Positions 26,622 through 57,907 of a DNA stretch of 64,000 nt are shown piece after piece. A program made the translations under genes and the position numbers. How positions within the stretch are numbered: position 1 is the stretch's first letter; every line of letters begins with the position of its first letter. Origin of the DNA: a virus. A model generated the notes under the pieces. The model was not told the DNA's origin and made no database searches. It saw only the letters and a program-made list of their open reading frames with translations. The stretch lies in IMG/VR virus record IMGVR_UViG_3300009509_000031, positions 29,822 to 93,821 of that record. The stretch is one strand, 5' to 3'.

Positions 26622-27082
26622 CCCCTGGATCCCATCATCTTGTGAACGGTGGTTGTTGCATCCAATATGCCACGATAAAACCCATTCCTGTTATTGCGCC
26701 GAGTAACAACACGGTATCGATAACCCAAAGGGCATTGTTTGGATACCTGTTTTTCTGTCTTAGCATTCTCGCAAAAACCGTAAGGCCCGCGATCAAGTAC
26801 AACACAAATGCCGAGATCATACTTATTTGACCTAATCCTAACGACGGTACCAAAGGGCAATGTTCTATGAGCACATACGAGATCAAAAACTGTTGGTTTT
26901 GTTCGCCACTTACCAGCATATCTAGCATAAGGAACCGTCTTTGATCGCTTCCATGGCCGGTACCCCGATACAATCCCGGTTTCAATACGTGATCCTTCAA
27001 CAGTTTTCCAATCAAACGATAAGTGGGATATCGGAATCACCGGTGTTAGAAATAGTAAGCTTAGTTTTAGGATAAACGTCAT
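26540..27082 (-). CDS. RlpA-like double-psi beta-barrel protein
   Basis: A 180-residue protein read from MTFILKLSLLFLTPVIPISH at 27082, a likely signal peptide. Residues 70-150 match the RlpA/expansin double-psi barrel: CAHRTLPFGTVVRIRS, then GICVVLDRGPYG with the Asp expected in RlpA catalysis, and later GILDATTTVHKMMGSRGW. RlpA proteins bind or cleave denuded peptidoglycan glycan strands. It sits beside the endolysin, so an exported role in cell-wall degradation is likely. No clear Shine-Dalgarno precedes the ATG, and the start overlaps the upstream gene by 71 bases. Confidence 0.7.
   Translation of the reverse strand: MTFILKLSLLFLTPVIPISHLSFDWKTVEGSRIETGIVSGYRPWKRSKTVPYARYAGKWRTKPTVFDLVCAHRTLPFGTVVRIRSNKYDLGICVVLDRGPYGFCENAKTEKQVSKQCPLGYRYRVVTRRNNRNGFYRGILDATTTVHKMMGSRGWIHATIERLNVDTMLQVLRLNVENNG
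26635..27015 (-). CDS. possible overprinted two-helix membrane protein
   Basis: A 126-residue frame lying wholly inside the RlpA-like gene in another frame. Its ATG forms an ATGA overlap with the decarboxylase-like stop, as real genes in this operon do. It contains two hydrophobic segments (ISAFVLYLIAGLTVFARML and WVIDTVLLLGAITGMGFI). It may be a real overlapping gene, as with Rz/Rz1-type lysis genes, or a by-product of hydrophobic codon content. Evidence is limited to start coupling and hydrophobicity. Confidence 0.3.
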   Translation of the reverse strand: MIGKLLKDHVLKPGLYRGTGHGSDQRRFLMLDMLVSGEQNQQFLISYVLIEHCPLVPSLGLGQISMISAFVLYLIAGLTVFARMLRQKNRYPNNALWVIDTVLLLGAITGMGFIVAYWMQQPPFTR

Positions 27083-29676: not shown

Positions 29677-31056
29677 CTATAGGGCTTTCAATCGCAAGCT
29701 TGCTTTTTTCACAAACTTCTTTGACTGTTCAATGCCAATGCTTCGCCTACCTAGCCGCTTACAAGCAACCTGTGTTGTTCCAACACCCATAAACGGATCA
29801 ACCACTAGATCCTTTTTCTGGCTATGTCGCTTCAACAACCTTTCAACCAACCACAACGGTTTCTGTGTTGGGTGATCCAGACGTTCGTTACCTTGACAGA
29901 TCGGACCTTCAAAGCAGTTATGAACGTATCTAGCACCCTTATTCTTAAACGGCTTAAAATACGGTTTACCCTTCGTTGCAAACACGATAGCTTCACAACT
30001 TGGAAGGTAAACACCATCCCTATTCACAACACCCGGATTCGTTTTATGCCAAATCATAAAACCCTTATAGGTTAGCTTTGCTGCTTCAATCATTGCTTCA
30101 TACACGCCGATCGCTTCACCAGGGCAGAATATTTGCAAAGAACTGTTTTTAGCCATCAATGGTGCCCAATCCAAAACCCACGAAGCATCAAGGTTATCCC
30201 AGTCAAACTCCCCACTATTAACATCTTGCCTTTCGCCGGCGTACCTAATCGTTGAATGTTCCCTATCATAAGGTGGGTCTGTAAACAGTAGATCAATCTT
30301 CCCAGTACAGTGCTCTTTAATCATATTAAAGTGCTCTTGCCACGTACCGTGAAGGATGCTGATTGTCTTTTGAAGTGCCTTCCCTGCTTTCTTTGCATCC
30401 GCTTTACGCTGTTCGTGTTTTTCTTTAGCCTCTTGCTTTAGTTTTTCTTCTTTCTCTTTCCTGCGGATCTCAGATAGCGCCTTCCTTGCTGCAACATTAC
30501 GTTCCCTAGTTGTGGCCGCTTCCTGTTCAATCTTACGTTTCTTATTTTCTGGTAGTTCTGCTATCTTCAACAAGTCCCTAACACTTTGTTCGCTGACACT
30601 AAGCACCTTTGCCGCTTCAGCTGTGAACCTTTCAACACTAGCATCAGCTTTTGGCCTACCCCTACCCGCACCACCAACTTTTGTTTCAGGATGGGCAGCT
30701 TCATACTTTTCCCGGTAACGTTTCAACCCATCAGCAACTTCAAGCTTATCAAACCCCTTTCGTTTAATGTTCTCTGCAAGTTGCATTGTTAGGTTATGCA
30801 ACTCATCCTTTGGTTTGATAACAACTGCCTTGACTGGAATACCAAGTTGCTTACAAGCCTTTGTTCTTCTAAGGCCAGCAATAATCACATAAGCACCTTT
30901 TTGCTTTTTACTTGGCTTAACAACAATCGGCTGTAGCTGCCCAATTGTTTTAATACTATCTGCGAGTTCTGCAATATCACCGTAATCTTGGCGTGCACGC
31001 CAGCCTTTTTTGATATCTTTCGGGTTCAGGTTCAATACGATCGTCTTTTCACTCAT
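29677..31056 (-). CDS. ParB-domain / DNA methyltransferase fusion
   Basis: A 459-residue protein; the start MSEKTIVLNLNPKDIKKG at 31056 has GAGGGTG in front. Residues about 15-110 are a ParB/Srx nuclease-type domain (QLQPIVVKPSKKQKGAYVII, AGLRRTKACKQLG, LAENIKRKGFDKLEVA). A helix-turn-helix-like segment follows (EAAKVLSVSEQSVRDLLKI) and a Lys/Glu coiled-coil linker (190-235). The C-terminal half is a DNA amino-methyltransferase with TDPPYD and DPFMGVGTTQVA. It probably methylates phage DNA at adenine or cytosine amino groups, which would protect it from restriction. ParB-methyltransferase fusions are known in mobile elements. Confidence 0.8.
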   Translation of the reverse strand: MSEKTIVLNLNPKDIKKGWRARQDYGDIAELADSIKTIGQLQPIVVKPSKKQKGAYVIIAGLRRTKACKQLGIPVKAVVIKPKDELHNLTMQLAENIKRKGFDKLEVADGLKRYREKYEAAHPETKVGGAGRGRPKADASVERFTAEAAKVLSVSEQSVRDLLKIAELPENKKRKIEQEAATTRERNVAARKALSEIRRKEKEEKLKQEAKEKHEQRKADAKKAGKALQKTISILHGTWQEHFNMIKEHCTGKIDLLFTDPPYDREHSTIRYAGERQDVNSGEFDWDNLDASWVLDWAPLMAKNSSLQIFCPGEAIGVYEAMIEAAKLTYKGFMIWHKTNPGVVNRDGVYLPSCEAIVFATKGKPYFKPFKNKGARYVHNCFEGPICQGNERLDHPTQKPLWLVERLLKRHSQKKDLVVDPFMGVGTTQVACKRLGRRSIGIEQSKKFVKKASLRLKAL

Positions 31057-31070
31057 AACACCCTCTCTTG

Positions 31071-32876
31071 TTACATCCATCTTACAGTTGAACAACCGTT
31101 TACTTTCTCAACTAACAACATCTCATCAACAGCCATTAAAACATCTTCGTGGTGTGACACTACCAACTGTTGCTTTAAGCCAAACTCAGATCCTAGTTTA
31201 TCGATAACAAGTCCAATAAGTTTTTGCCGGTTATTAGCATCAAGCATCGCAAACACTTCATCTAGCATAATGCTCTGAATACTGATCCCCAACATTGACG
31301 CCACAAAAAACGCACCGGCTAACCTAACAGCAAAGCTCTGCAACACTTGGCCGCCACCAGATTCCAAAGCAAACGGCCGTTCCTGTGTTCCATCGTATAC
31401 AGTAACCATCGGTTCATTTTTCTGCTTTCGTGGTCTAGCAGATCCACAGGAAGAACACAGATCCGTTGACGTAGCTTTTAACCATATTTCAGAACCACAT
31501 ACCGGACATACTTTTTCAAAGCTTGCAAGTTCTCTATATGCCGCAAACCTGATCCGTTTTGGATAGTCAAGCCGGCTCAATATCCAGTTACACCGCGTTT
31601 CAACCTTTTCAAGTTCTGATTCCAAAATCTGCGAAGGAATACCTTTGTTGCTACACATCCAATACAGAAACCGCGTTTTCTTCATTCGGCTTTCAAGCTG
31701 CTTTATTTTTTTATTACAGGTTCGGACGGCTTCCTTTGCTTTAGAGATTTGATCAAGCTCTGTTTCAGCTCTTGTTACAATCGCTCTAAGATGTTGCTCT
31801 TCACCTGCAAGCTGAGAAATTGATCGCCGCACACCAGCAATCTTTTCTTTCAATGTGTTTCGCTTGTCAGTATTTGCCGGCTGCTTCTTTGTTTGCTTGG
31901 CTGCCTTTCTTAGCTCTTGTTGCTTCTTAACGTTAGCCTTTATCTCTTCCTTCAACCCGGTTACTGTAACAACAAACGCTTTCCGTTTCTTTTCATACGA
32001 TGCAGCTAACTGTTTACAGGATACAGACAACAAAGGACACATCCCCTTTTTGATCTGTTCCAGTTCTTGCAAAGCTTTTAACAACTTTTTGTTAAGCCGA
32101 TCATGTTCATCCTTTAGATCATCAATCCGATCGTTAACATCCTCAGTATGCTTTTCACCTGCTTTTATAACCTGCAACTGGCCGGATAATTCAAGCTCTG
32201 CTTCCCTCGCTTGCTCCAACTGATCAGATACAGCCATAAGTTTCTTTTTTGCTGCTAACAGTCGTTTTGAAATAACCGGCTTGTCTTTCAACATTTCCGC
32301 TTGCACGGCTTTTGTAGCCTGTACTGTTTCACGTTGTGATAATAGTTTTGACGTATCAGCTCGAAACTGATCCGCAAGTGCTTGCCACATAGCCAATGGT
32401 TGAGTCCATCGCCTGAAATACGCTGATTTATCCCCTAACATGAATTGACTGATATCACCCTGCACAAAGTAAGACAGCGCAATAAAATCATCATACGTCA
32501 ATCGGATTGCTTCATTGATCAGTGCTTGGCCATCAGCAAGCTTAACCGGCTTTCCATCAAGAGAAATAAAGCCGGTGTTGTCTACTGTCCTACCGCGTTG
32601 AATTGTAATCTGGCCGGCACCTGGTACAGTCAACCCAACCTCCACAACCATATCTTTATCGGCACCATCCGTGATCAGCTGCACATCACGAACCTTGTGC
32701 ACGTCTTGCTTTAGTGGAACCTTTCCGTATAAGGCATAACAAATTGCCCTTAACAGTGTGCTCTTACCTGATTCGTTAGCGCCAACAATCCCGACAACTT
32801 TTTTTCCTGATAGGTCAAGTGATACCTCTTTTTTGTAGGCACCAAAATTTCTAAGCATCAAACTATCAACGATCAT
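31071..32876 (-). CDS. SbcC/Rad50-like recombination ATPase
   Basis: A 601-residue SMC-like protein resembling T4 gp46. It has the P-loop GIVGANESGKSTLL near residue 35 and, after coiled-coil arms, a zinc-binding segment (CPVCGSEIWL and LCSSCGS). The signature ESGGGQVLQSFAVRLAGAF and the Walker B/D-loop MLDEVFAMLDANNRQ lie near the C-terminus. Its partner nuclease gene is directly upstream and overlaps by 11 bases. Together they process DNA ends for recombination-dependent replication. Confidence 0.85.
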   Translation of the reverse strand: MIVDSLMLRNFGAYKKEVSLDLSGKKVVGIVGANESGKSTLLRAICYALYGKVPLKQDVHKVRDVQLITDGADKDMVVEVGLTVPGAGQITIQRGRTVDNTGFISLDGKPVKLADGQALINEAIRLTYDDFIALSYFVQGDISQFMLGDKSAYFRRWTQPLAMWQALADQFRADTSKLLSQRETVQATKAVQAEMLKDKPVISKRLLAAKKKLMAVSDQLEQAREAELELSGQLQVIKAGEKHTEDVNDRIDDLKDEHDRLNKKLLKALQELEQIKKGMCPLLSVSCKQLAASYEKKRKAFVVTVTGLKEEIKANVKKQQELRKAAKQTKKQPANTDKRNTLKEKIAGVRRSISQLAGEEQHLRAIVTRAETELDQISKAKEAVRTCNKKIKQLESRMKKTRFLYWMCSNKGIPSQILESELEKVETRCNWILSRLDYPKRIRFAAYRELASFEKVCPVCGSEIWLKATSTDLCSSCGSARPRKQKNEPMVTVYDGTQERPFALESGGGQVLQSFAVRLAGAFFVASMLGISIQSIMLDEVFAMLDANNRQKLIGLVIDKLGSEFGLKQQLVVSHHEDVLMAVDEMLLVEKVNGCSTVRWM

Positions 32877-34853: not shown

Positions 34854-35756
34854 TTACCTAATACCTTTCTTCTTCTTAGGCATTGGCAACAATCCCTTAT
34901 CATAATCAAGCAAAACGTATGCTTGTTGATACGGTCTAGCAAGCCGGTTCTTTTCTGCAGTTATACATAGTTTAATACCGGCAACGTACTTTTTCCCATT
35001 TCGCACCCTGGTATACTTGCCAAGCATTTCTAACTTTAGCCTAACTGACGCGTGAAACCGTAAAGCAAACCCACCTGGTGGTTTATGTGCCGTACCGAAT
35101 TGGCTATCCGCTGTTCTAATTTGATTAACACAAAACAGGATAGTGTTTGTTCGAGGAATACGGCCAGCAACCTTTCTGATGGCACTGCTAAGCATCAACG
35201 CTCTAATCTGTGCTGAACGATCCCGTTTTATCTCGCCTGTTTCAGCAAGCTCTTCAAGTTCTGCTTTAGTGTTCATTCCGGCAATAGAGTCAATCATCCC
35301 AACCATCAACCCAGTACGGCCAATTGCAGTAATAGATTTTGAAAAAGATCCAAAAACACCTTCAACGGTTTCATCATCCCCTAATATAAGACGGGATAGA
35401 TCAACACCATATTTACTAGCCAACCATTCATCATACTCACCTTCACACGGCCACAATACACCATCCCCGCCAAGCTTTTGAGCTTGTGCAATTAAGCTAT
35501 ACCCAAGTGCAGTCTTACACGTTGCCTCAGCACCAAACACTTCAACAATCCTACCAACAGGCCAGCCCCTACCTTTTCTATCAAGTACTAAATCAAGTTC
35601 TGGAACACCTGACGGTATAAACATCCGTGGAACACCGCGATCACTTGTATTCGCCATATGCACTGCTTCTGTACCAAGTACAGAAGCAATAGCATCAGCA
35701 ACCTTGCCAATACGTGAAACTAGTTCAACCTCCCTAATAATCTTTTTCTTACTCAT
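34854..35756 (-). CDS. RecA-like recombinase
   Basis: A 300-residue protein, start MSKKKIIREVELVSRIGK at 35756. The RecA core is clear: IPSGVPELDLVLDRKGRGWP, VGRIVEVFGAEATCKTALGY, MVGMIDSIAGM (Walker B region), NTILFCVNQIRTADS and the L2-region PPGGFALRFHASVRLKL. The P-loop is GAEATCKT (residues 75-82): the Gly before Lys of the usual GPESSGKT is Cys. Like UvsX it should promote strand exchange. Neighbours include SbcCD, UvsY-like and SSB genes. Confidence 0.85.
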   Translation of the reverse strand: MSKKKIIREVELVSRIGKVADAIASVLGTEAVHMANTSDRGVPRMFIPSGVPELDLVLDRKGRGWPVGRIVEVFGAEATCKTALGYSLIAQAQKLGGDGVLWPCEGEYDEWLASKYGVDLSRLILGDDETVEGVFGSFSKSITAIGRTGLMVGMIDSIAGMNTKAELEELAETGEIKRDRSAQIRALMLSSAIRKVAGRIPRTNTILFCVNQIRTADSQFGTAHKPPGGFALRFHASVRLKLEMLGKYTRVRNGKKYVAGIKLCITAEKNRLARPYQQAYVLLDYDKGLLPMPKKKKGIR

Positions 35757-35778: not shown

Positions 35779-37233
35779 CTAATCAAGCCACACTGGCGGC
35801 TCATCACAGTATTCGTTGTAGATACTTTCTAGCTTTTTAAGTTGTGATTTTGAAATTAGGGTTGTTTCTTCTTTCTCAACAGCCTCAATTAACTTTGACA
35901 CAAACTTTAAACAGTTTGTTGGTTGTTCCTTTAACCATTGCCATCCGTCTTTTGCTGATAGTACGGACAAAATGAACAGGGCATGTGCTTTTCTTGCTGT
36001 TCTTGATTCCCGTACATTATCGTATGTAGCCGTTCCCTTATCAGCAAACTCAATTCTGCAATTCCGGCGGCCCACTGTTCCCTTCGTGGCCCTTGGTTTA
36101 TCTGTTCGTACAACTGTTTTAGAGTGTCTGGATCGGCTAGCCGCAGTAACGCCATTAGCTTCAACCTTTCGTATACGGCTAGCGTAGATCCGTTTGACGC
36201 TGTTGGAAGTTCTTTCTGTTCGTTTTTGAGTTCTGCAACAACCTCTTTTCTTGTTTCTCTCACCTTCATCACCGGCTGTAACCACAACCCGCAATCGTTT
36301 TGTCCAAGAACCCTTTTTATCTTTTTTGACCATTGAATTTTTCGCAACCTTTTTGTGTACACCCGTACCTCTACACAGTGTTCTAAAGGATCCACAAAAC
36401 CCGGAAAATTTCCTAATCAGTGAACTCAACCCGAATTCAACACATCGATCATGCAGTGCTTGTTTATCAAGCACCGTCTTTAACCGGCCAAACTTGTACT
36501 GATTCAACAGATCGCGCTTTTCTTCTTCTGTAATATGCGGCTTTTTCAGATCCCATAATGAAGTGTTGCGTGTAATCACACTAACAACATCTTTATGGGA
36601 TACGGATCCCAGCCCACCTTGCTTTTTAGAATGTTGCAGTATCCGATCTAGTGTCTTAAACCTATCAAGTAACTTCCTAGCCGTTTTATCCCCAACCATA
36701 TGAACACCAGGAACATTATCCTTATTACCTACTAGTAATCGGTAGGCCAAGAACTGTTCAGGCTGCATTTCTAATTTAACTTTTGCATGTGACTTGGGAT
36801 CAATGATGTAGTGGTTTTTAGGTACACAAAGCTGGAAGAGATCAGAATCGCTAGTCACGATACCAACCTCTTCCAGCTTTAGAAATACGGTTAATACGGC
36901 TATAACGTCATCTGCTTCAACACCATTTTCATAGCATTGAATAACCGGCAATGTGTCAAAGAATCGTTTAAGAATTGCAAGTTGCCTAATTAAGTCTTCA
37001 ATAAACTCCGGATCCTTATTTCTGTTTGCTTTGTAATCCGGAAAAATCGCCTTCCTTTTATTACTACCACCATCCCAACAGATAATAAGTTCATCCGGAT
37101 CCAAATCTGCAGCAAGGCTAGCCAAGCTTTTTAACACACCGTACACAATATTAGTATTCTGGCCCTTATAAGACAGACTCAGTTTATATGCTGCCCTATA
37201 CGCCAGATTAGATAAATCAACAAGTAGTCTCAC
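35779..37233 (-). CDS. 5'-3' exonuclease (FEN), ORF with anomalous C-terminal half
   Basis: A 484-codon frame. Residues 1-275 are a flap-endonuclease/Pol I-type 5' nuclease: LLVDLSNLAYRA, ICWDGGSNKRKAIFPDYKAN, GVEADDVIAV, IVTSDSDLFQL and the helix-three-turn-helix LVGNKDNVPGVHMVGDKTAR. Length then exceeds the family by about 200 residues. From about 280 to 430 the frame is an Arg/Lys/Ser/Thr-rich text that does not look folded, while another frame over the same DNA looks protein-like. The last 60 residues look natural again (DGWQWLKEQPTNCLKFVSKL). See the overlapping entry and the finding on this locus. Confidence 0.75.
   Translation of the reverse strand: MRLLVDLSNLAYRAAYKLSLSYKGQNTNIVYGVLKSLASLAADLDPDELIICWDGGSNKRKAIFPDYKANRNKDPEFIEDLIRQLAILKRFFDTLPVIQCYENGVEADDVIAVLTVFLKLEEVGIVTSDSDLFQLCVPKNHYIIDPKSHAKVKLEMQPEQFLAYRLLVGNKDNVPGVHMVGDKTARKLLDRFKTLDRILQHSKKQGGLGSVSHKDVVSVITRNTSLWDLKKPHITEEEKRDLLNQYKFGRLKTVLDKQALHDRCVEFGLSSLIRKFSGFCGSFRTLCRGTGVHKKVAKNSMVKKDKKGSWTKRLRVVVTAGDEGERNKKRGCCRTQKRTERTSNSVKRIYASRIRKVEANGVTAASRSRHSKTVVRTDKPRATKGTVGRRNCRIEFADKGTATYDNVRESRTARKAHALFILSVLSAKDGWQWLKEQPTNCLKFVSKLIEAVEKEETTLISKSQLKKLESIYNEYCDEPPVWLD
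35931..36269 (-). CDS. overlapping frame inside the FEN ORF
   Basis: This frame reads MKVRETRKEVVAELKNEQKE and continues with ADPDTLKQLYEQINQGPRRE and AGIAELSLLIRERLHTIM, a normal helical protein text, and ends MPCSFCPYYQQKTDGNG. It can be extended upstream without a stop to 36416. It is offset from the FEN frame by one base. It may be a separate gene, or the true continuation of a longer protein reached by two opposite one-base shifts. No clear ribosome site precedes the internal ATG. Confidence 0.45.
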   Translation of the reverse strand: MKVRETRKEVVAELKNEQKELPTASNGSTLAVYERLKLMALLRLADPDTLKQLYEQINQGPRREQWAAGIAELSLLIRERLHTIMYGNQEQQEKHMPCSFCPYYQQKTDGNG

Positions 37234-37517
37234 ATTACCCTCTTTTTTGCTGACGGTGTGTTACCTTGCTTCCAAGGATTTGCCCCGTATTCTCTACACC
37301 AAGCAAAATGACATTTCCAACCACAAAACCCGCGTCTAACTTTGTTATCTGTTCTTGCGTATACAACATTAGTTAGACGTTCCCCACATTCAGAACAATA
37401 AACCAGGTATTCACCGGCGTTTTCTTTTTCCCTTGGAAGAGCCTTTCTTAGCCTTTTTGCGATCACTACTTTTGGCTTTTCGCTTCTTTTTTGGTTTTTC
37501 TTCTTCATCGTCATCAT
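37230..37517 (-). CDS. zinc-finger protein downstream of SSB
   Basis: The certain part is the C-terminal 60 residues: YCSECGERLTNVVYA, then GFCGWKCHFAWCREYGANPW, a multi-Cys zinc module. The upstream part overlaps the SSB tail in another frame, and the true start is unclear (ATG at 37508 or a later GTG). The stop overlaps the FEN start as ATGA. Function unknown. Confidence 0.55.
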   Translation of the reverse strand: MMTMKKKNQKRSEKPKVVIAKRLRKALPREKENAGEYLVYCSECGERLTNVVYARTDNKVRRGFCGWKCHFAWCREYGANPWKQGNTPSAKKRVM

Positions 37518-38469
37518 CAGCTAGATCATCGTCTTCATCAGTATCATCTTCATCATCCGATGAATCCCCGTCATCATCGTCATCATCAGAATCATCTTCA
37601 TCATCGGTACTATCATCGTCATCATCATCTAGATCATCACTATCTTCATCATCCTCATCAGACGTATCAGGATCATCAAACAACTCATCTTCATCAGAAT
37701 CGTTTTCAAAACCATCACCCTCATCATCAAACCCATCATCACCAGACAGATCCTCATCATCATCAAAATCATCTTCATCCGCATCACCTTTGATGAACTT
37801 TCGGATCGCGGTTCTTTGGGCTTTTTCACTGGCCGGCTGCACTGCTTTAATCGTATCTAGATCATTCAACGCTTCATACACATCATCAGTGATGTATTTA
37901 GCGATATTAATTGGATCTGAAAATTTAACAGACGGGTATCTAGTGGCCTTACCCTTGCCTTTTCTTTTGATTGCTACAATAACGGCAGCTTCTGGATCGC
38001 TAATATCGATCTTCTCATCAGTAACGTGATCAACAATCTGTTCAAAAACGTTACTACTAACCCCCAACAACTTTACAGGACCGCGAGACTTAATATCTTC
38101 TTTTCTGATTGCGTTCATAAAACCACGGCTTGACAACCTAAAGTTATCCGCGAAGTCTGAATCCCCCTTTTTCAGTGCTTTCTTCCGTTCCTTACAAATC
38201 AAACACGGTTTATCGTATCCAGAATTAGGTGGGCATACCAACCCCAATCCGTGTTGTTGAACTTCACGCCACAATACCCTGATCTCATCTGCCCATGGTG
38301 GACATATATAAAAATAATTCCAGCCAACTTTCAATTCATGGAACTCACCACCAGATCGATCCGCAAGTTCCTTTTGTTTCTTTGCTGCTTCATCAAAGTC
38401 AATACCGCGTCGTTTTCTCTTACTGCTACCCTTACTTTTTGATCCTGACTTATCCTTTTTCTTTGCCAT
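37411..38469 (-). CDS. single-stranded DNA-binding protein with acidic and basic tails
   Basis: A 352-residue gp32-like phage SSB. The core (about 35-200) includes KVGWNYFYICPPW, GLVCPPNSGYDKPCLICKE with the zinc-binding Cys residues, and LLGVSSNVFEQIVDHV. Residues about 228-325 are almost entirely Asp, Glu and Ser, longer than usual SSB acidic tails, and the last 28 residues are Lys/Arg-rich (KKKRKAKSSDRKKAKK). Acidic SSB tails normally recruit replication proteins; the added basic end is unusual. It is encoded between the UvsY-like and FEN genes. Confidence 0.8.
   Translation of the reverse strand: MAKKKDKSGSKSKGSSKRKRRGIDFDEAAKKQKELADRSGGEFHELKVGWNYFYICPPWADEIRVLWREVQQHGLGLVCPPNSGYDKPCLICKERKKALKKGDSDFADNFRLSSRGFMNAIRKEDIKSRGPVKLLGVSSNVFEQIVDHVTDEKIDISDPEAAVIVAIKRKGKGKATRYPSVKFSDPINIAKYITDDVYEALNDLDTIKAVQPASEKAQRTAIRKFIKGDADEDDFDDDEDLSGDDGFDDEGDGFENDSDEDELFDDPDTSDEDDEDSDDLDDDDDDSTDDEDDSDDDDDDGDSSDDEDDTDEDDDLADDDDEEEKPKKKRKAKSSDRKKAKKGSSKGKRKRR
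37501..37790 (-). repeat. GAT/GAC/GAA triplet-repeat tract in SSB gene
   Basis: About 290 bases of near-uninterrupted Asp/Glu/Ser codons with strong triplet periodicity, coding for the acidic tail. A similar tract occurs at 51451-51770. Such tracts expand and contract by slippage. Confidence 0.75.
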
Positions 38470-38471
38470 AA

Positions 38472-38993
38472 CTACCGATCCTTTCGTTTTCTTTTTACAG
38501 ATCTCTTTACAACCCGCTGTTCCAAAACCCTGTTAGCTCGTTTTATTTTCTTTCTTAGTGATAAATCAGTTGAATCCTTTTCTGTTCTGTTATCTGCACC
38601 AAGTTGAATCAGCATATCCTTACGTTGTTTAAATGCTTCAACAGCAACTTTTAGAATATCCCTGTTAAACTTTGCTTTGTGCCACGCTTCAACAGCTTCC
38701 CTATGCCGACTATGTTTTGTTATGTGTTCTTTGATCTCAGCTTCTTTACTGTTTCGTTTTTCAGATCTGTATTTCAATCCCAGCTTAGCCCCAATTACAT
38801 CCTTTGCTTCTTCCGATCGCCTTGCTTCATCTTCCGCCCTAGCGTGTAAAAATCCCCAATGTGCGAAGTAACTAGCTTGTCTTGAAAATTCTTGTTTCAG
38901 ATCTGCCCCAATACCAAGCTCTTCAAGGATACCCAACATCGTTTTTTCTGGATCAATAAGATCATCGTTTTCATCTTCACGCCGCTTTGGCAT
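38472..38993 (-). CDS. UvsY-like recombination mediator
   Basis: A 173-residue helical protein, start MPKRREDENDDLIDPEKTML at 38993 with GGAGG and AAGGGG upstream, overlapping the polymerase end by 17 bases. The C-terminal region contains ILKVAVEAFKQRKDMLIQLG followed by a basic tail, the pattern of UvsY-type mediators that load the recombinase on SSB-coated DNA. Its neighbours (SSB, RecA, polymerase) agree. The assignment is by motif and context. Confidence 0.65.
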   Translation of the reverse strand: MPKRREDENDDLIDPEKTMLGILEELGIGADLKQEFSRQASYFAHWGFLHARAEDEARRSEEAKDVIGAKLGLKYRSEKRNSKEAEIKEHITKHSRHREAVEAWHKAKFNRDILKVAVEAFKQRKDMLIQLGADNRTEKDSTDLSLRKKIKRANRVLEQRVVKRSVKRKRKDR

Positions 38994-41700
38994 ACCCCTT
39001 AACCTCCAAATAGCTTTGATATTCTTCTTTCTCTTCCTTACTCTGGTATTCTTCACCAAAACATTGTTGCTTCAAACATTCCACCTTCAACGGCATTTCA
39101 TACTTATGCCGGCTATCTTTTGGTAATGTATCGGCCATCCATACCACGATCTTTTCACTTGCGTCATCTGCACAACATTTGTGACAACTAAACACCAACT
39201 GATCGTGAAGTGTAAGAATGATTCTCAATCCTGGAAAGTTTGATCGTCTAATACCGTCATACACCCGTTTGGTTGCTCTTGTCATCACATCACCGGCAAT
39301 AGCTTGCACTTCAAAGTTGTAAGCTTCCCTATGCAAATGTGATAAATCAAAATCCCGCTTATCGGTTCTCAATCCGTATTTAGACAAGAACCACTGAATA
39401 CCCGGCAACCGGCGTTTTCTACCGTATACAGCACTAGTAAGCCGCCCATTCTTTTCAACAAGTGCAACCTGTTTACGTCTAAAGGCTGCTATCCTCTGAT
39501 ACTTTTCAAAATACGCATCAATGACACGTTGAACTTTTAATTGCCGTTCCTTCATCGGCATGTTCAACGGAAAACTATCAGGATTAGCTTCAGCAATTGC
39601 ATAGGCACCTCTACCGTATGGAATACCGAAGTTTGCACCCTTGGCAACAGATCGTTCATCCTTGGTAATCAGCGGTGCAATCTGTTTCCATTCTTCATCG
39701 GTGGGTTCTCGCATCAACCTAGCAACAACTGCCATTCTCGTATGCAGATCAACACCAGTTAGAAGCTCTTTAATCATGATCCTTTCATTAGCAAGCCACG
39801 CTAATACGCATAGTTCAACTTTTTCATAATCAGCAGAAAGGATCACATGATCTGGAGTATCGGGAACAAGGATTGAACGAATACAGCCGGTTCTTGGAAG
39901 TGTCTGAACCGGCGGATCATCAGCTGAAAGCCGGCCAGTTCTCGCGATGTGTATATTAAAATTTGGGTGGAATCGGTTCTTAGATTCAAGATAACGCAAA
40001 AACGCACCATCCGAATCCGTACCATCCAAATTTTTTGTTATGTAACCTTCAAACTTTCTTAATTCAATGATCGCCCTAGCGATCCTACCTGCTTTTGTCT
40101 TCTGAATAGACAGAGCTTCTAAAACAAACTTATCTGTTGATCGGTTACCGCCCCTTGTTCGTTTACGTAAATCAGCACCGGCTGCTTCTAGTAAGTTGGC
40201 AAGCTGAATAGGTGAATTAGGATTAAAGATAACAATATTACCTTTTGTATCACGAACAGTCCCAAGCAACTTGTTTGCCTGGTTCTTTATCCGTGTAAGT
40301 ATTCTTTCAGACTTCTTACGGTAATGTTTACTCAGATACAGTAACCGTTCCTTATCACACTGCAGCCCACGATATTCTGCATCAGCAAGCGGGTTGATTA
40401 GTCCCATATGCCCCTTAAACGGGCCAACCGTTTTTTCTTGCTTTAATAACTTAACTAACTTCTTTTTTATTAGCCACGTTGCATTACAGTCATAACCGCA
40501 ATAAGACCATAACAGCCGGTTTGGAACTTCCCACGTTTTGAAGATCGTTTTTTTACCGGCCGTAACCTTATACTCATCCATAACCGCATCATATTTTTTC
40601 CAACGCAAGTACCATTGACTTTGAAAGGTAAGATTATGCGGTTTGTTTTCGTCAATATTTGCATGTGCAATCAACGTATCAAACACAACGTTGAAATCAA
40701 CAATACCTGTCAATTTCCTAATATGCTTGATATCAAATTTTAAATTTTGCCCGATCAGTTTTGCTTTTAAAAAAACTTGAGTTAACCTATCAACTAAAAT
40801 CCTTCGTTGCTGTGGTGTCCAAAAATACGTCTTACCCTGTACCATCCACGGCAAGATATGACTTTCATCATCCTCAAAACAAAACCCCACACACATAATT
40901 TCTGAAGTGTGTGGGGATAGCCCCGTCGTTTCTAAATCAAACACAAAACCCGTATCAATCCGTTCTAACCGGCTCAACAGGGCTAGTGCTTTTTCAAACG
41001 TATCAGCAACCGTTATTTTTGTTGTAGGACTTTTTAACGGTTCCTTACCAGCTGCAAGCCGTTTTGCAACTAGTAGATCAAACACCACCAAATCATCGAA
41101 TTCCCAATTATGCAAACACGCATTAGGGTTATGTGTAGGAACAACCCAAAACGTGTGGGAATACGTCTTACCCTTTTTAGTTACCCATTCAATCGTATGT
41201 TTACTATAAAAACCGCGCCAACTTTTTACAGTTCTAGTGTTCTTCTTAACTGTCTGATGGCCGTTTTTCTGCGTAACAATCTCACCAAGAATCGTTTGAT
41301 ACGCAACAGAACCTAAGCATACAACCACCTTCGGTTTGTTTTTAAGTATCGATCTTAGGAGATAGCCGTAACAAGATGAGATATGATTTACGGAAGGTTT
41401 TTTTGTTCCCGGTACCCTACACCTAACAGCCGTTTCAATGCGTAGGGCTTTCCTATCAAGTCCAGATCGTTTTAAACAGTAATTTAACTTCCAACCGGAA
41501 TCACCAACAAACGGTCTAGATCTTTCTTCGTCTATCGGCCCTAGCGATTCCCCCAACAACATAATATCCGCTGTTGACGGTCCTGATCCATCGCAACAAA
41601 CGGTTTTTGATGTTTTGCAAAGATCGCATCGATTACAGGTAACACTTTGACGAAGTAATTTGATCCGGTTGATCTGTTTCGCTGTTGCTTTCGCTGGCAA
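38977..41700 (-). CDS. uracil-DNA glycosylase / DNA polymerase I fusion
   Basis: A 907-residue protein with TTG start. Residues 1-190 are a family 4-type uracil-DNA glycosylase: CNRCDLC, MLLGESLGPIDEERSRPFVG, RCRVPG and SSCYGYLL, with four Cys placed as for a 4Fe-4S cluster. A 3'-5' exonuclease follows (FVFDLETTGLS, then IGQNLKFDIKHI). The C-terminal half is a family A polymerase with motif A ILSADYEKVELCVLAWL, motif B RSVAKGANFGIPYG and motif C LTLHDQLVF. In motif C the usual HDE is HDQ. This is the replicative polymerase. UDG-PolA fusions are known in some phages. Confidence 0.85.
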   Translation of the reverse strand: MPAKATAKQINRIKLLRQSVTCNRCDLCKTSKTVCCDGSGPSTADIMLLGESLGPIDEERSRPFVGDSGWKLNYCLKRSGLDRKALRIETAVRCRVPGTKKPSVNHISSCYGYLLRSILKNKPKVVVCLGSVAYQTILGEIVTQKNGHQTVKKNTRTVKSWRGFYSKHTIEWVTKKGKTYSHTFWVVPTHNPNACLHNWEFDDLVVFDLLVAKRLAAGKEPLKSPTTKITVADTFEKALALLSRLERIDTGFVFDLETTGLSPHTSEIMCVGFCFEDDESHILPWMVQGKTYFWTPQQRRILVDRLTQVFLKAKLIGQNLKFDIKHIRKLTGIVDFNVVFDTLIAHANIDENKPHNLTFQSQWYLRWKKYDAVMDEYKVTAGKKTIFKTWEVPNRLLWSYCGYDCNATWLIKKKLVKLLKQEKTVGPFKGHMGLINPLADAEYRGLQCDKERLLYLSKHYRKKSERILTRIKNQANKLLGTVRDTKGNIVIFNPNSPIQLANLLEAAGADLRKRTRGGNRSTDKFVLEALSIQKTKAGRIARAIIELRKFEGYITKNLDGTDSDGAFLRYLESKNRFHPNFNIHIARTGRLSADDPPVQTLPRTGCIRSILVPDTPDHVILSADYEKVELCVLAWLANERIMIKELLTGVDLHTRMAVVARLMREPTDEEWKQIAPLITKDERSVAKGANFGIPYGRGAYAIAEANPDSFPLNMPMKERQLKVQRVIDAYFEKYQRIAAFRRKQVALVEKNGRLTSAVYGRKRRLPGIQWFLSKYGLRTDKRDFDLSHLHREAYNFEVQAIAGDVMTRATKRVYDGIRRSNFPGLRIILTLHDQLVFSCHKCCADDASEKIVVWMADTLPKDSRHKYEMPLKVECLKQQCFGEEYQSKEEKEEYQSYLEVKGYAKAA

Positions 41701-51035: not shown

Positions 51036-53405
51036 TTACTTAGATTTTCTCTTTTTGCTTTTCTCTTTCTTCTTACCCTTGCTTGTAGTCTTTGTTTTCT
51101 TCTTATCAGCTTTATCTTTCGTACCCTTTTTCTTATCTTTCGTTCCAGCTGTACCAAACTTCTTATTCTGCACCTTCGTAATTGCCTTGATCAAATCATC
51201 AGAGGTTCCGATACGAACAGGATCCTTGATACCAAGTACACCGGCGACCATAACCAACACGGTTCTCTTCATCGCCTTCAACTGCTTACCGGTATACGGC
51301 AACTCAGAAGCGATCTGTTTTCGCTTTGCTTCCTTTTCTTCCTCTTTCGAGTTTTTTACATCCTTTGCCTTTTTCTTCCCTGTCTTTGTTTCAGGCTTCT
51401 TCTTACCCTTGCTTGTAGTCTTTGTTTTCTTCTTTGGTTTTTCTTCCTCTACTTCCTCATCATCATCCTCACCATCATCCTCAGCATCATCTTCATCATC
51501 ATCTTCATCATCATCCTCATCATCATCACCATCTAGTTCTTCATCATCATCTTCATCATCCCCATCCCCATCATCATCTTCATCATCTTCATCATCTTCA
51601 TCATCCCCATCATCATCTTCTTCATCTTCATCATCCCCATCCCCATCATCATCCTCATCTTCTTCATCTTCATCACCATCTAGCTCTTCATCATCCCCAT
51701 CCCCATCCTCATCTTCTTCTTCATCCTCAAACTCATCATCATCCCCATCATCATCCTCATCAGTTTCTGCAGCTGCAGCAATGGGCTTGAACTTTGCCGA
51801 ACAATAGGGACAAACCTTTAGCCCATCAATAATATCAGAAAAACAAGCACCACAAGTATAGCTTTCAAACGTCTTATCTTTTGCTAGTTCCCGCTTAATC
51901 AATTTCTTCAGCTTCTTTACAGTTGCCCCTTTTGGGACCTTGATCCCAAGCTGTTTACACCCGGCTTTAAGCGTATCAATCGTAATTGCTACTTGTTCAA
52001 CTGGCATTGTTCCAATCTCCCTGTGTTTATACGGCAACACCATTTCTTTAACAGGATACAGCTGCCGTATGTTGTACTTTTTCGCTTTTAGTTTGTTAAC
52101 TGAATTATCAAACAAGTAATACAGTGTTGCAGATTCTTTTCCATCATATGGCCTAACGATCCTACCTCGCATTTGTTTAAACCGGTACATCTTACGGCCA
52201 GCAGATGCACAAGTCATAATACCAACATCAAGTGGCGGAATATCGATCGCCTTTTCTGCAACAGTTGTTCCGATTCCAATTTCAATTGATCCGTCGTTTA
52301 ACCCTGCTTCAGTACCATCAGCCTCTCTTTTGTATTGTTTTGTCCCTATTAGCAATCCAGCGTTGTACCCGTTTGCTATAAGGGCACGTTTTAGGCGTTT
52401 ACAATGATCAACACGATCACTCCAGATTAATACTCGCTTTCCGTTGTCCACCTCTCTTTTAGCTAGTGTCAAAATGAGCTTATTACGTTGTCTATCTTCA
52501 ACTAGCTCATCAAGTACCCCGTTCCATTCTCGTAACAAAGACTTAATCGATCCTTGACTATATACAAAACCTGTTGGCACTAATACAATAGATACCGGAA
52601 CCTCCAGAGCATTTGTTGCCAACCTCCAACCCCTTGGTCCAAATGTGTCGTAAAGAAGAAACTCCCGCTCATCTCTTCTGCGTTCATCATCACTGGCACC
52701 AAGCCGAACAGCTGCAGGCATGTTATTAACAACTTCTGACAATGTTGGTGCAGCAAATCGATCAACCTCATCACAGATAACGCACCCATAACGATATTTT
52801 AGTTCTGCAAGCCTGTTTCTTACGGAACCAACCATCCCGACAACAATCGGACGATCCAAAACAGGCTTAGTATACGCACCACCAACACCACCGGGCCAAA
52901 AATCAAAATATTTAGCGATCCGTTTGACCCAAGTTTTTTGTTGCCTCTCTTGCCAAACTAATACGAGTGTTGGTTGACTAAAGTGTGCAGCTGTTACTAG
53001 CAGCATTTCAGTTTTACCAGATCCACAAGGTGCACGAATCACCGTTTGCTGCCGGCGAATCATCCTATCAACACCAGGTTTCTGATAGTCTCTTAAAGTA
53101 ATTTGACAGTTCAAATCAATTTTTGGTAGCCACAACCGTTGATCAACAATTTCATAATCAAGATTCAACAACCGAAATAGACGAACAACCGGACCTAGTG
53201 AACCGCGCCAAAGAATTAAATGGCTGTCCGTTTCTTGCCACGTTCTAATCTTTGGGGTTAACCCGTCTGTTGGTAGGCATTGCCGTTTTAGTTGACGATA
53301 CTTCGGATCGGCATAAGTACACGTTGCCTTGATCCTATCTATTACAGGATCAGGTAAATCCGCCTTACAGATCCTAAGCTTACTTTCAACGTGTATTCGG
53401 ATCAT
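51036..53405 (-). CDS. UvsW-like superfamily 2 helicase with charged tails
   Basis: A 789-residue protein. SF2 motifs: RDYQKPGVDRM (Q-type), RAPCGSGKTEML (P-loop), VICDEVDRF (DExD), KRVLIWSDRVDHCKRL, and KQMRGRIVRPYDGK (Arg finger). A zinc knuckle follows (CGACFSDIIDGLKVCPYC). Residues about 545-660 are nearly all Asp/Glu, then a Lys-rich segment with two copies of KKTKTTSKGKKK flanks a small folded part (QIASELPYTGKQLKAMKRTV). UvsW-type helicases remodel recombination intermediates. The tail organisation parallels that of the SSB. Confidence 0.8.
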   Translation of the reverse strand: MIRIHVESKLRICKADLPDPVIDRIKATCTYADPKYRQLKRQCLPTDGLTPKIRTWQETDSHLILWRGSLGPVVRLFRLLNLDYEIVDQRLWLPKIDLNCQITLRDYQKPGVDRMIRRQQTVIRAPCGSGKTEMLLVTAAHFSQPTLVLVWQERQQKTWVKRIAKYFDFWPGGVGGAYTKPVLDRPIVVGMVGSVRNRLAELKYRYGCVICDEVDRFAAPTLSEVVNNMPAAVRLGASDDERRRDEREFLLYDTFGPRGWRLATNALEVPVSIVLVPTGFVYSQGSIKSLLREWNGVLDELVEDRQRNKLILTLAKREVDNGKRVLIWSDRVDHCKRLKRALIANGYNAGLLIGTKQYKREADGTEAGLNDGSIEIGIGTTVAEKAIDIPPLDVGIMTCASAGRKMYRFKQMRGRIVRPYDGKESATLYYLFDNSVNKLKAKKYNIRQLYPVKEMVLPYKHREIGTMPVEQVAITIDTLKAGCKQLGIKVPKGATVKKLKKLIKRELAKDKTFESYTCGACFSDIIDGLKVCPYCSAKFKPIAAAAETDEDDDGDDDEFEDEEEDEDGDGDDEELDGDEDEEDEDDDGDGDDEDEEDDDGDDEDDEDDEDDDGDGDDEDDDEELDGDDDEDDDEDDDEDDAEDDGEDDDEEVEEEKPKKKTKTTSKGKKKPETKTGKKKAKDVKNSKEEEKEAKRKQIASELPYTGKQLKAMKRTVLVMVAGVLGIKDPVRIGTSDDLIKAITKVQNKKFGTAGTKDKKKGTKDKADKKKTKTTSKGKKKEKSKKRKSK
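51067..51434 (-). repeat. 38-base direct repeat in helicase C-terminus
   Basis: The same 38 bases occur at 51067-51104 and 51397-51434, coding for KKTKTTSKGKKK. They bracket a small folded segment at the C-terminus. Confidence 0.7.
51451..51770 (-). repeat. GAT/GAA triplet-repeat tract in helicase gene
   Basis: About 320 bases of Asp/Glu codons with GATGAT and GATGAAGAT units, coding for the acidic tract. Similar to 37501-37790. Confidence 0.75.
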
Positions 53406-55402: not shown

Positions 55403-57907
55403 CTAATAAACCTCTCTTCCAAGAGTAACCGCCACAACTTCGTTATCAGAAACTTCCCACAAGTCTAGCCACATTTGAATTGCTGTTGGATCATCCAAAT
55501 TATCTTGATAAGCTTGTGGTCTAAGCAACCCATTAGCGCCGTTAAATGTAATAGTGCTTAGCGTTTTTGTTGCCGGTGCAGACATATCAGATGTGTAATA
55601 CCGGATTGTCTGATGGCCAGTAATAGCAAAGTAAAAGTTAGTATAAAGCGGATTACCGCTTGAAAACTGTGGACCAAAACCGGTATCAACCTTTTCAGTT
55701 GGGTTCGTACCGTCATCAACAACAAGCCAATAGTTTTGGTTACCGTGTACGTTGTTATCAAGTTCAAACTTGATACGGTAGTTACCAGCAACATCATCAA
55801 AACCGATCCAATTTGTGCGATCAGATAGCAATACATTATCAATTGCCATACGTGCCTTAAACACAAGATACAACTTTGATGTATCAAGCCAAAAAATAGA
55901 AGGGCCTTCAAGCTGCACAGATTCCGTTGCAGCCGTGTTAGCAAACCTAGCTGCACCACCATGGGCCATTTGAGCAACACCAACTAATGATCCCTGTTGT
56001 GTTACAGTAGCCGATCCTGTTGCGGTAACCTTGTACTGTTTAGGGCACGTTGTGTTACTAGTCCAACCTGTTGGTGATGATTGGTTATAATGAAAATCAT
56101 CTTTAAAATGATGGGGCGTTGCTCTAATACCATACGGCTCTAGGATTCCAACAATTTGCCCGGTTGGATCATTAATCTCTTCAAGCAAATCACCGGAACC
56201 TGTAAACCAATCAAGTGCAGTTGTCCCATTTATACCGCTAGCAACTAAACCAAGTCCAACAGCACCGCTAGCTTGTACCTGCATATCTCGTGTAGGGGCA
56301 ATAATCAGCTGTTGAAATGTTTTAAGCGCACCCTCTTTATTAATCCATGTTGCCACTTTTGGTGCAGCTTCATAAGACTCATAAAATTTGATGTGATCAG
56401 CTGCATCACCATAAAAGATTGCTGCAGCGTAACTATCATCACCACCATTACCAGATGGTGGGCCTAGTGACTCATTAGGACCATGAAAAGCCGTTCCACC
56501 AGCACCATGAATTATCGCATTAGATGCACTTCCCCAAAATTTTGGATTAGTGATCTGTTGGACTCTTAGAATAGTTACGTTGCCAGTATCCCCGGCACCA
56601 AAAGCAGGAGTTCCGCCATCAAGCTCTCTTAGCTGTAACGTTGTTGCGGCTACTACTAGAATCGTATACAACCCATTAGGCACTGTTGAAAACCCTTGCA
56701 ACCAAGCAAGGTCCATTCTGATATTAACGTTAGATGCAGCCCAATCAACGGATCCAGTTCTTGTTACAATATCCGGTGATGTTGTTGAACACGGGTTATC
56801 GATAATTAGATTACCTGTACTATGGGTTAATGGTACAACATGCAATTGCCCTGCTTCGGAACCATCCCGTTCATCAGATATCGTTAGAACACCAACACCA
56901 CCGTTTTCTGTTCCGCCTTTTCGATCAACCCGGAGTGTTGTAAACATATCATCTCCGGATCCGGTTCTGCTTTTCAGTTCAACCGCGCCACTATCAACAT
57001 TAACGATCCGCCCACTACCGCTGCCCGTTGCCCCGTCATATGCTCGATCAAGCGTATTGATAAACACAGGTACTTGACCGCTTGTATCAAACACAGTTGG
57101 CGTTGCACTTGGACCGTTACCGGTAATCTCACCAATAAACGCATAATCTGAATCAGTGCTTAGATCCTTATTTGCCTTATTACGCCAAGTAACACCTTCA
57201 ACAAACACCCTATATTCAGTTGCGATCTGCGATGGTGGCCCACCACTTGTATCTTGGCCTAGTGGCCCTAACGCACCACTATAAGGAATATCCACATAGT
57301 TATTAGGGGAAGCATACGCGATCGTACCTTCATAGTAAGCAGCTGTTGCAGCCGGACCTTCAATGGGAGAAACAGGATCAACCAACCAAACACGGCAAGT
57401 TCTACCACTATGATCTTCGTTCGCACCTGTTACAGAATTTACCCGAACCCTGATATATGTTGTCTGATCATCAACATCATCGGGATAATCAACTTCCCCA
57501 TACGTTTGTTTCAAACTAGGATATTCTGGATCACCAGTTCTAGGGTTCAGCTCAATCCCATCAGGAACTTCAGCATACTTGATCCCAACACTGTACGTTG
57601 TTCCTGTATTGTTCTCAAATGGGATCGCTGAAGTGATACCGGCACCATTCAACAAACTCATATCAATGATCTGCCCACCACCTACCACTACCCGCCATGC
57701 TTGTGATATATCAAGTTCAAAAGTGTCATTAGCAACAGAGTTAATCAAAATAGGATCCGAATCCAATACGCCACTGATCCCAATAAAGATACCGGCTGTT
57801 ACTTCTTCAATCGTCCTAAGCAAGAAATCAAGAAAGTTATCCTTAATGCCCGTCAAGCTTAGAAGTCTCTTAGGGTAGATATTGATTTTACGATCTGCGG
57901 TAGGCAT
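55403..57907 (-). CDS. large tail/fibre protein
   Basis: An 834-residue protein. The N-terminal 130 residues (MPTADRKINIYPKRLLSLTG) are followed by beta-rich text with many Gly/Thr/Asp residues (for example GSGSGRIVNVDSGAVELKSR), typical of tail fibre or tail-tip proteins. The last 200 residues look like a carbohydrate-binding or lectin-like domain (DNVLLSDRTNWIGFDDVAGN). It is the last gene in the tail operon read before the holin, so it probably contacts the host surface. Confidence 0.65.
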   Translation of the reverse strand: MPTADRKINIYPKRLLSLTGIKDNFLDFLLRTIEEVTAGIFIGISGVLDSDPILINSVANDTFELDISQAWRVVVGGGQIIDMSLLNGAGITSAIPFENNTGTTYSVGIKYAEVPDGIELNPRTGDPEYPSLKQTYGEVDYPDDVDDQTTYIRVRVNSVTGANEDHSGRTCRVWLVDPVSPIEGPAATAAYYEGTIAYASPNNYVDIPYSGALGPLGQDTSGGPPSQIATEYRVFVEGVTWRNKANKDLSTDSDYAFIGEITGNGPSATPTVFDTSGQVPVFINTLDRAYDGATGSGSGRIVNVDSGAVELKSRTGSGDDMFTTLRVDRKGGTENGGVGVLTISDERDGSEAGQLHVVPLTHSTGNLIIDNPCSTTSPDIVTRTGSVDWAASNVNIRMDLAWLQGFSTVPNGLYTILVVAATTLQLRELDGGTPAFGAGDTGNVTILRVQQITNPKFWGSASNAIIHGAGGTAFHGPNESLGPPSGNGGDDSYAAAIFYGDAADHIKFYESYEAAPKVATWINKEGALKTFQQLIIAPTRDMQVQASGAVGLGLVASGINGTTALDWFTGSGDLLEEINDPTGQIVGILEPYGIRATPHHFKDDFHYNQSSPTGWTSNTTCPKQYKVTATGSATVTQQGSLVGVAQMAHGGAARFANTAATESVQLEGPSIFWLDTSKLYLVFKARMAIDNVLLSDRTNWIGFDDVAGNYRIKFELDNNVHGNQNYWLVVDDGTNPTEKVDTGFGPQFSSGNPLYTNFYFAITGHQTIRYYTSDMSAPATKTLSTITFNGANGLLRPQAYQDNLDDPTAIQMWLDLWEVSDNEVVAVTLGREVY

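Follow-up and report, generated by a model that had tools for sequence, protein, structure and literature searches.

The window, by which we mean the whole stretch of 64,000 nucleotides analyzed here, comes from the 93.8-kb record of an uncultivated virus (IMG/VR IMGVR_UViG_3300009509_000031, positions 29,822 to 93,821). On its minus strand, a gene for a 5'-3' exonuclease/flap endonuclease (FEN) lies between genes for a single-strand DNA-binding protein (SSB) and a RecA/UvsX-like recombinase, and a second open reading frame (ORF), designated alt, is nested within FEN in the +1 frame. The features of the locus are as follows.

37411 to 38469, minus strand: SSB with an acidic tail, upstream neighbor of FEN (phrog_1192, E = 5.8e-19)
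35779 to 37233, minus strand: FEN gene, starting at GTG and encoding 484 aa in a single unbroken frame
36393 to 36395, minus strand: first in-frame GTG of alt, the less likely start, as homologs begin at about the equivalent of GTG 36362
35931 to 36395, minus strand: the nested ORF as listed, 154 aa counted from that first GTG
36367 to 36372, minus strand: putative Shine-Dalgarno (SD) sequence AGAGGT preceding GTG 36362, -7.1 kcal/mol with the anti-SD
35931 to 36362, minus strand: putative overlapping +1-frame gene alt inside FEN, 143 aa from GTG 36362
36012 to 36182, minus strand: most conserved part of alt, residues 61 to 117, with invariant columns and predicted helices
35967 to 35978, minus strand: CxFC motif of alt, with C129, F131, and C132 invariant in 7 of 7 sequences
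35931 to 35933, minus strand: TAA stop codon of alt, end of the nested frame
35803 to 36003, minus strand: C-terminal helical domain of FEN, residues 411 to 477, with helices in the model and alignable in 8 of 8 sequences
34854 to 35756, minus strand: RecA/UvsX-like recombinase, downstream neighbor of FEN, used to find relatives

Between SSB and FEN lies a 95-aa ORF with five cysteines (37230 to 37517, minus strand) that overlaps the end of SSB by 107 nt and the start of FEN by 4 nt. Elsewhere on the minus strand of the window, a 907-aa DNA polymerase A ORF (38977 to 41700) contains a uracil-DNA-glycosylase superfamily domain at residues 39 to 200, and a 472-aa protein (29677 to 31095) has a ParB N-terminal domain joined to a DNA methylase domain.

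The initial annotation had described the 484-aa FEN ORF, the nested ORF, and two homopolymer runs, TTTT at 36396 to 36399 and AAAA at 35989 to 35992; all of these are present at those coordinates. It had also held that a second frame stays open for about 160 codons and that this is improbable by chance. The alt frame is open from stop to stop for 161 codons within the FEN ORF, and the chance of such openness was estimated by shuffling synonymous codons while the protein of one frame was held fixed. Across the window alt protein, the FEN frame was open in 0 of 20,000 draws made with the codon usage of the N-terminal part of FEN and in 0.4% of draws made with that of the alt ORF. In the converse test, the alt frame of the window was open in 0.16 to 0.17% of draws. 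Openness alone is not decisive, because it is much less unusual in the GC-rich relatives, where alt had no stop in as many as 22% of draws (L094 and L098), and because the window has three more ORFs of 120 aa or longer that lie within a longer ORF on the same strand (26635 to 27015, minus strand, 126 aa; 55558 to 55983, minus strand, 141 aa; and 51422 to 51790, plus strand, 122 aa; tallied from a list of ORFs of at least 100 aa). For two of these, 26635 to 27015 and 55558 to 55983, a search of three related records gave no match, which is a weak test. Judging from the sequences, the case of FEN and alt is settled by conservation in relatives and not by openness.

Relatives were chosen through RecA searches of IMG/VR, independently of the alt sequence. 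A single RecA query yielded one relative, an alignment of a RecA pair yielded two more, and an N-terminal RecA alignment yielded 11 loci, including those already found. With identical or refetched contigs counted once (L004, L005, L008, L088, and L093 are the same as L003, and L099 is the same as L007), there were eight distinct FEN-RecA sequences with RecA identity of about 55% or more: the window, L003, L006, L092, L094, L095, L098, and L007. The seven of these in which FEN holds alt (see below) span 41 to 67% GC. Two further contigs, L096 and L097, are identical to L095 over the FEN gene, and the three come from different IMG dataset ids, which argues against assembly error there. The fetched stretches of two more distant loci, L100 and L101 (RecA identity of 29%), contained no FEN or alt match. 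IMG/VR scans use short peptide patterns, so that divergent relatives can be missed; in these scans, neither the FEN core nor alt gave a match as a single-protein query, and alt alignments of two and three rows returned only contigs that were already known. Among the best 80 of at least 415 stretches matched by a FEN pair alignment, 1 was the L003 contig and 79 were distant FENs with 26 to 34% identity. No RecA relatives were found in genome_contigs.

The +1 frame within FEN encodes a homolog of the window alt in seven of the eight distinct sequences. In all seven, the offset of alt is +1, alt has its own start and stop, and the FEN frame runs unbroken from the nuclease core to the C-terminal helices. 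The alt proteins are 122 to 168 aa long (366 to 504 nt), start at FEN residues 288 to 305, end at residues 418 to 473, and share 24 to 41% identity with the window alt in the six relatives. A hidden Markov model built from the alt sequences of the window, L003, and L006 matched the same frame in the four genomes fetched later (E = 1e-21 to 8e-30). Both frames are thus open and conserved, as expected of an overlapping gene pair.

This pattern bears on the first of the options raised by the initial annotation, that two homopolymer indels, from assembly error or recent mutation, have disrupted a single product consisting of the nuclease core, the alt frame, and the C-terminal helices. Protein-like text does change frame near TTTT 36396 to 36399 and AAAA 35989 to 35992. 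Six other distinct sequences carry the same two frames, however, with FEN unbroken and alt in +1 throughout. Neither of the two relatives compared by eye, L003 and L006, keeps the runs at the corresponding positions; a TTTT in L006 lies nearby but in a different codon. At the supposed point of return, moreover, conserved motifs of the two frames coincide in six of seven sequences: the CxFC motif of alt and an ALxxL motif of FEN, which opens the C-terminal helical domain, are encoded by identical positions, contrary to a single reframed product. The indel explanation is almost certainly wrong. The sequence SKSQLKKLESIYNEY, in which the reframed product had been proposed to end, does belong to the helical C-terminal domain of FEN, but the FEN frame leads to it without any reframing. 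The initial annotation had also reasoned that a 484-residue frame shared by homologs with conserved sequence would speak against its reading; the homologs do share this frame and its sequence is conserved, but so is that of the second frame.

The FEN product of the window matched PF02739 (E = 2.8e-31), PF01367 (43.6 bits, cutoff of 40), and phrog_107 (E = 2e-38). The Pfam matches cover the first 204 residues, and both expected parts, an N-terminal resolvase-like nuclease domain and a C-terminal SAM-fold domain, are present. Residues D6, E106-A-D108-D109, D129, D131, and D172, which we take to be candidate metal-binding residues, are invariant in all eight sequences. In a shallow AlphaFold2 model based on four sequences, residues 257 to 411 had pLDDT values below 50, mostly about 25, and blocks of the helical domain at residues 411 to 477 reached about 50 to 62. 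The stretch between core and helical domain, which has many K/R or many small and polar residues and net charges between +12 and +27 in the seven alt-bearing genomes, is probably a long, basic, disordered linker. Residues A418, W433, L434, and P480 of the C-terminal domain are invariant, and this domain is in phase with the core in all eight sequences despite the differing length of the stretch between them. When the C-terminal domain of the L095 FEN was searched alone, no credible phage relative was found; the one match was to an RNA phage polymerase (E = 0.9).

Constraint on the two frames was assessed in 20 sequence pairs by synonymous shuffles that keep one protein and score the similarity of the other frame. 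With FEN kept, the similarity of the alt frame was 2681, versus -942 in shuffled sequences (standard deviation of 155.5, z of about 23). With alt kept, the similarity of the FEN frame was 1573, versus -322 (standard deviation of 151.7, z of about 12.5). The summed z for the FEN frame was 10.97 when draws were steered to keep FEN open, and 52 of 2,100 such draws still held a stop. Since the 20 pairs share sequences, the sums were judged against joint shuffles and not as independent tests. The pair L095-L098 was excluded from all sums because it is too close and its synonymous sites are unsaturated; its controls were high as well (3.8, 2.0, 5.5, and 4.3). Controls from RecA and the N-terminal part of FEN, for which no overlap is claimed, gave summed z values of 1.96, 0.44, 1.76, and -0.96. 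Pairwise z values ranged from 4.34 to 10.0 for alt and from 2.04 to 6.35 for FEN. The low end of the FEN range is not decisive alone, because single control pairs ranged from -2.7 to 3.3 (the maximum for RecA in L092-L095), and it is the sum that decides.

Variability by codon position changed in the same region. At FEN positions 1, 2, and 3, it was 0.47, 0.33, and 0.70 in the N-terminal part and 0.61, 0.51, and 0.47 in the overlap, so that the most variable site shifts from FEN position 3 to FEN position 1, which is position 3 of alt. The overlap varies across codon positions as DNA coding for alt would. Within it, alt is also the better conserved of the two frames. This better conservation, together with the better fit of alt to genome codon usage in four GC-rich genomes (see below), would agree with a reading in which alt alone is translated in this stretch, the open FEN frame is a by-product, and the C-terminal helices are made in some other way. 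Against this stand the open FEN frame in seven of seven genomes, its similarity above that of alt-preserving shuffles, also with the openness-steered draws, and the conserved phase of the C-terminal domain described above. We consider translation of alt alone to be extremely unlikely.

A start codon for alt was found at approximately matching places in all seven genomes, ATG in six and GTG in the window, with some uncertainty as to the exact start in L006, and an associated ribosome-binding signal was predicted. SD pairing was strong for two sequences (the window and L098), moderate for three (L092, L094, and L095), and weak for the other two (L003 and L006). The share of background off-frame ATG/GTG sites with pairing as strong was 0 of 30 sites in the window, 0 of 11 in L098, 0.05 of 19 in L092, 0.12 of 16 in L094, 0.15 of 26 in L003, 0.22 of 18 in L006, and 0.24 of 21 in L095 (P = 5e-4 for all seven combined, zeros being set to a floor of 0.01).

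The initial annotation had also suggested frameshifting at the homopolymer runs. In a programmed frameshift, some ribosomes would slip +1 near FEN residue 290 and produce a FEN core fused to alt, and this would agree with two frames that are open in seven of seven genomes and with an alt that is always +1 to FEN. A fusion would not call for the ATG or GTG that every alt ORF has at about the same place, mostly behind an SD-like sequence. In L003, an alt-frame stop ends 15 nt before the alt ATG and leaves five codons for slipping. A frameshift cassette would be expected to have a conserved slippery site ahead of the second frame, and by eye the runs are not shared by L003 and L006, the two relatives compared. 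On the start codons and this comparison of two relatives, frameshifting appears very unlikely.

An overlapping gene, the third option of the initial annotation, is favored by the +1 alt with its own start and stop and by the conservation of both frames in seven genomes. We infer that both proteins are translated and that alt is initiated independently. That alt is a real same-strand overlapping gene is very probable on the sequence evidence, and it is likewise highly likely that a FEN nuclease and a separately initiated 143-aa alt protein account for the locus as a whole. Under this model, ribosomes from the FEN start would produce the 484-aa nuclease with its core, basic disordered linker, and C-terminal helical domain, and a second initiation on the same mRNA would occur at GTG 36362 behind AGAGGT. 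The +1 frame of the linker-coding DNA would then yield a distinct protein of 143 aa that is basic at its start, is helical in its core, and bears a C-terminal CxFC. With its gene between those of SSB and RecA, alt would be coexpressed with FEN.

The exception to the shared CxFC and ALxxL nucleotides is L098, where an in-frame insertion of about 170 residues directly follows the overlap and the C-terminal domain of FEN resumes in frame behind it. The insertion in the L098 FEN (L098:1929-4160) was recognized by eye as what we take to be an HNH homing endonuclease-like sequence with an AP2-like part. Ahead of the insertion, the FEN frame has AVPLL and the alt frame retains CxFC; behind it, the FEN frame has AALGVL and CxFC is missing from the alt frame. 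Judged from the encoded residues, the flanks appear to be two copies, each of which keeps one of the two sequences. A blastn comparison of the two flanking stretches gave no significant DNA match between them. No Rfam family was found in the L098, L006, and L003 loci, indicating that no described intron family is present there. In L098, an insertion appears to have started to pull the two sequences apart.

Most alt proteins have a KR-rich start, and residues L69, A71, A76, L84, G100, E103, and L104 of the core are invariant. A model based on three sequences had low confidence (mean pLDDT of 52.7) and predicted helices at residues 63 to 75, 78 to 90, and 99 to 117, where blocks of ten residues had pLDDT values of 59 to 76. 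In the overlap, the alt product thus looks helical and the FEN product looks like a basic disordered linker.

Homologs of alt were sought in several libraries, and none of them gave a convincing match. Comparison with PHROGs, Pfam, NCBIfam, and PDB gave matches to single members only (best E = 0.0012, 18.5 bits against a cutoff of 174), and a fold search of the PDB with the low-confidence alt model had a best E value of 1.6. A tblastn search of phage records with three of the seven alt proteins found no stand-alone homolog (best E = 0.4), and a peptide-pattern search of genome_contigs found none. The alt profile detected no further homolog in 92 fetched sequences (best other E = 0.58) and nothing else at E values of 1 or less in 112 fetched loci. 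In eight whole related records and that of the window, alt occurred at one place each in seven of nine, all of them known; the whole records of L007 (103 kb) and L101 contained no homolog.

The alt locus sits among SSB, FEN, and RecA. An embedded spanin resembling Rz1 was considered and rejected, as no lipobox-like signal was visible by eye in the alt N terminus and the gene is not in a lysis cassette. Because of the CxFC motif, the charge, and the gene position between SSB and RecA, we offer the doubtful guess that alt could serve the replication/recombination module of the phage as a metal-binding or redox accessory.

The FEN of L007, 412 residues long, has the C-terminal domain but a short linker, and alt is absent. 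Since its FEN lacks the overlap and no alt homolog occurs in its record, alt is, as far as the sequence tells, dispensable or replaceable in L007. In trees, L007 fell, with modest support, among the alt-bearing sequences, which would suggest loss of alt, but an AU test did not reject the seven alt-bearing sequences as one clade (P = 0.177 for FEN plus RecA, P = 0.079 for FEN). An intein-like insertion, roughly 400 residues long, splits RecA in the same genome (L007:3537-5657, GGEA/CIPED ... VLHN/TCKTG, identified by eye).

As to the origin of the overlap, we tentatively propose a scenario that is possible but somewhat less likely than not: alt may be the older gene, once located downstream of a FEN of about 290 to 320 residues that lost its stop, was read through, and gained the linker and C-terminal domain. 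Read-through of an older downstream gene has been called conceivable for embedded spanins (PMC6139136). The start of alt at FEN residues 288 to 305 is near the place where the FENs of Herelleviridae (312 to 325 aa) nearly end, which was counted in favor of this origin, as were the more constrained alt frame and the better codon fit of alt in the four GC-rich genomes. Codon-usage fit in the overlap, alt versus FEN, was -0.022 versus -0.185 in L092, 0.213 versus -0.146 in L094, 0.087 versus -0.225 in L095, and 0.075 versus -0.337 in L098. Against this origin, the FEN frame had a slightly higher fit in the three AT-richer genomes (FEN versus alt, 0.036 versus 0.021 in the window, 0.025 versus -0.042 in L003, and 0.050 versus -0.007 in L006, where the reference was a single gene), and no free-standing copy of alt was found in the records and libraries searched. 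In Goe26 and LysYB2, the alt profile did not match the genes that directly follow FEN.

Several known systems resemble this arrangement in part. As in lambda Rz/Rz1 (PMC6139136), a complete small +1 gene lies inside a larger same-strand gene of a tailed phage. Unlike in lambda, the outer gene here encodes a replication nuclease, and alt has a KR-rich start with no lipobox seen by eye. Embedded spanins were found in 182 of 677 phages, and gene callers are biased against overlapped genes (PMC6139136). The olg1/olg2 pair of Pseudomonas phage Fc02 (PMC9936078) also consists of two same-strand ORFs in different frames, but these are other genes, located in a lysogeny control region. Here, constraint on both frames is seen across divergent genomes, and the present pair is known from sequence alone. 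In viral overprinting, of which phiX174 is the classic example (PMC8227390), a homolog-less protein in one frame is likewise paired with a disorder-prone stretch in the other. In the present overlap, the orphan frame is the better conserved and, in the four GC-rich members, has the more genome-like codons. The 5'-3' exonucleases of Herelleviridae (Goe26, LysYB2, and EalM132) are homologous to the window FEN in the nuclease core and, at 312 to 325 aa, lack its long linker.

Among the papers listed in full-text searches for overlapping frames with flap endonuclease or exonuclease in phages, and in broader searches, none was seen to report a FEN/alt pair. The arrangement is of a known kind, and the FEN/alt pair and the small protein family appear to be undescribed within the literature and libraries searched. 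Overlaps in the +1 frame in viruses are usually short, with a median of 14 nt and an interquartile range of 8 to 26 nt (PMC8903798), compared to 366 to 504 nt for FEN and alt. The overlap involves a core replication nuclease and what would be a new protein family of a type that gene callers would tend to miss. At least seven genomes make up a natural set for studying how one stretch of DNA would encode a helical protein together with a linker that is probably disordered. If the read-through origin is true, the usual direction of overprinting would be reversed, and the new tail of a replication nuclease would have come from read-through into the neighboring gene, with both genes kept by selection.
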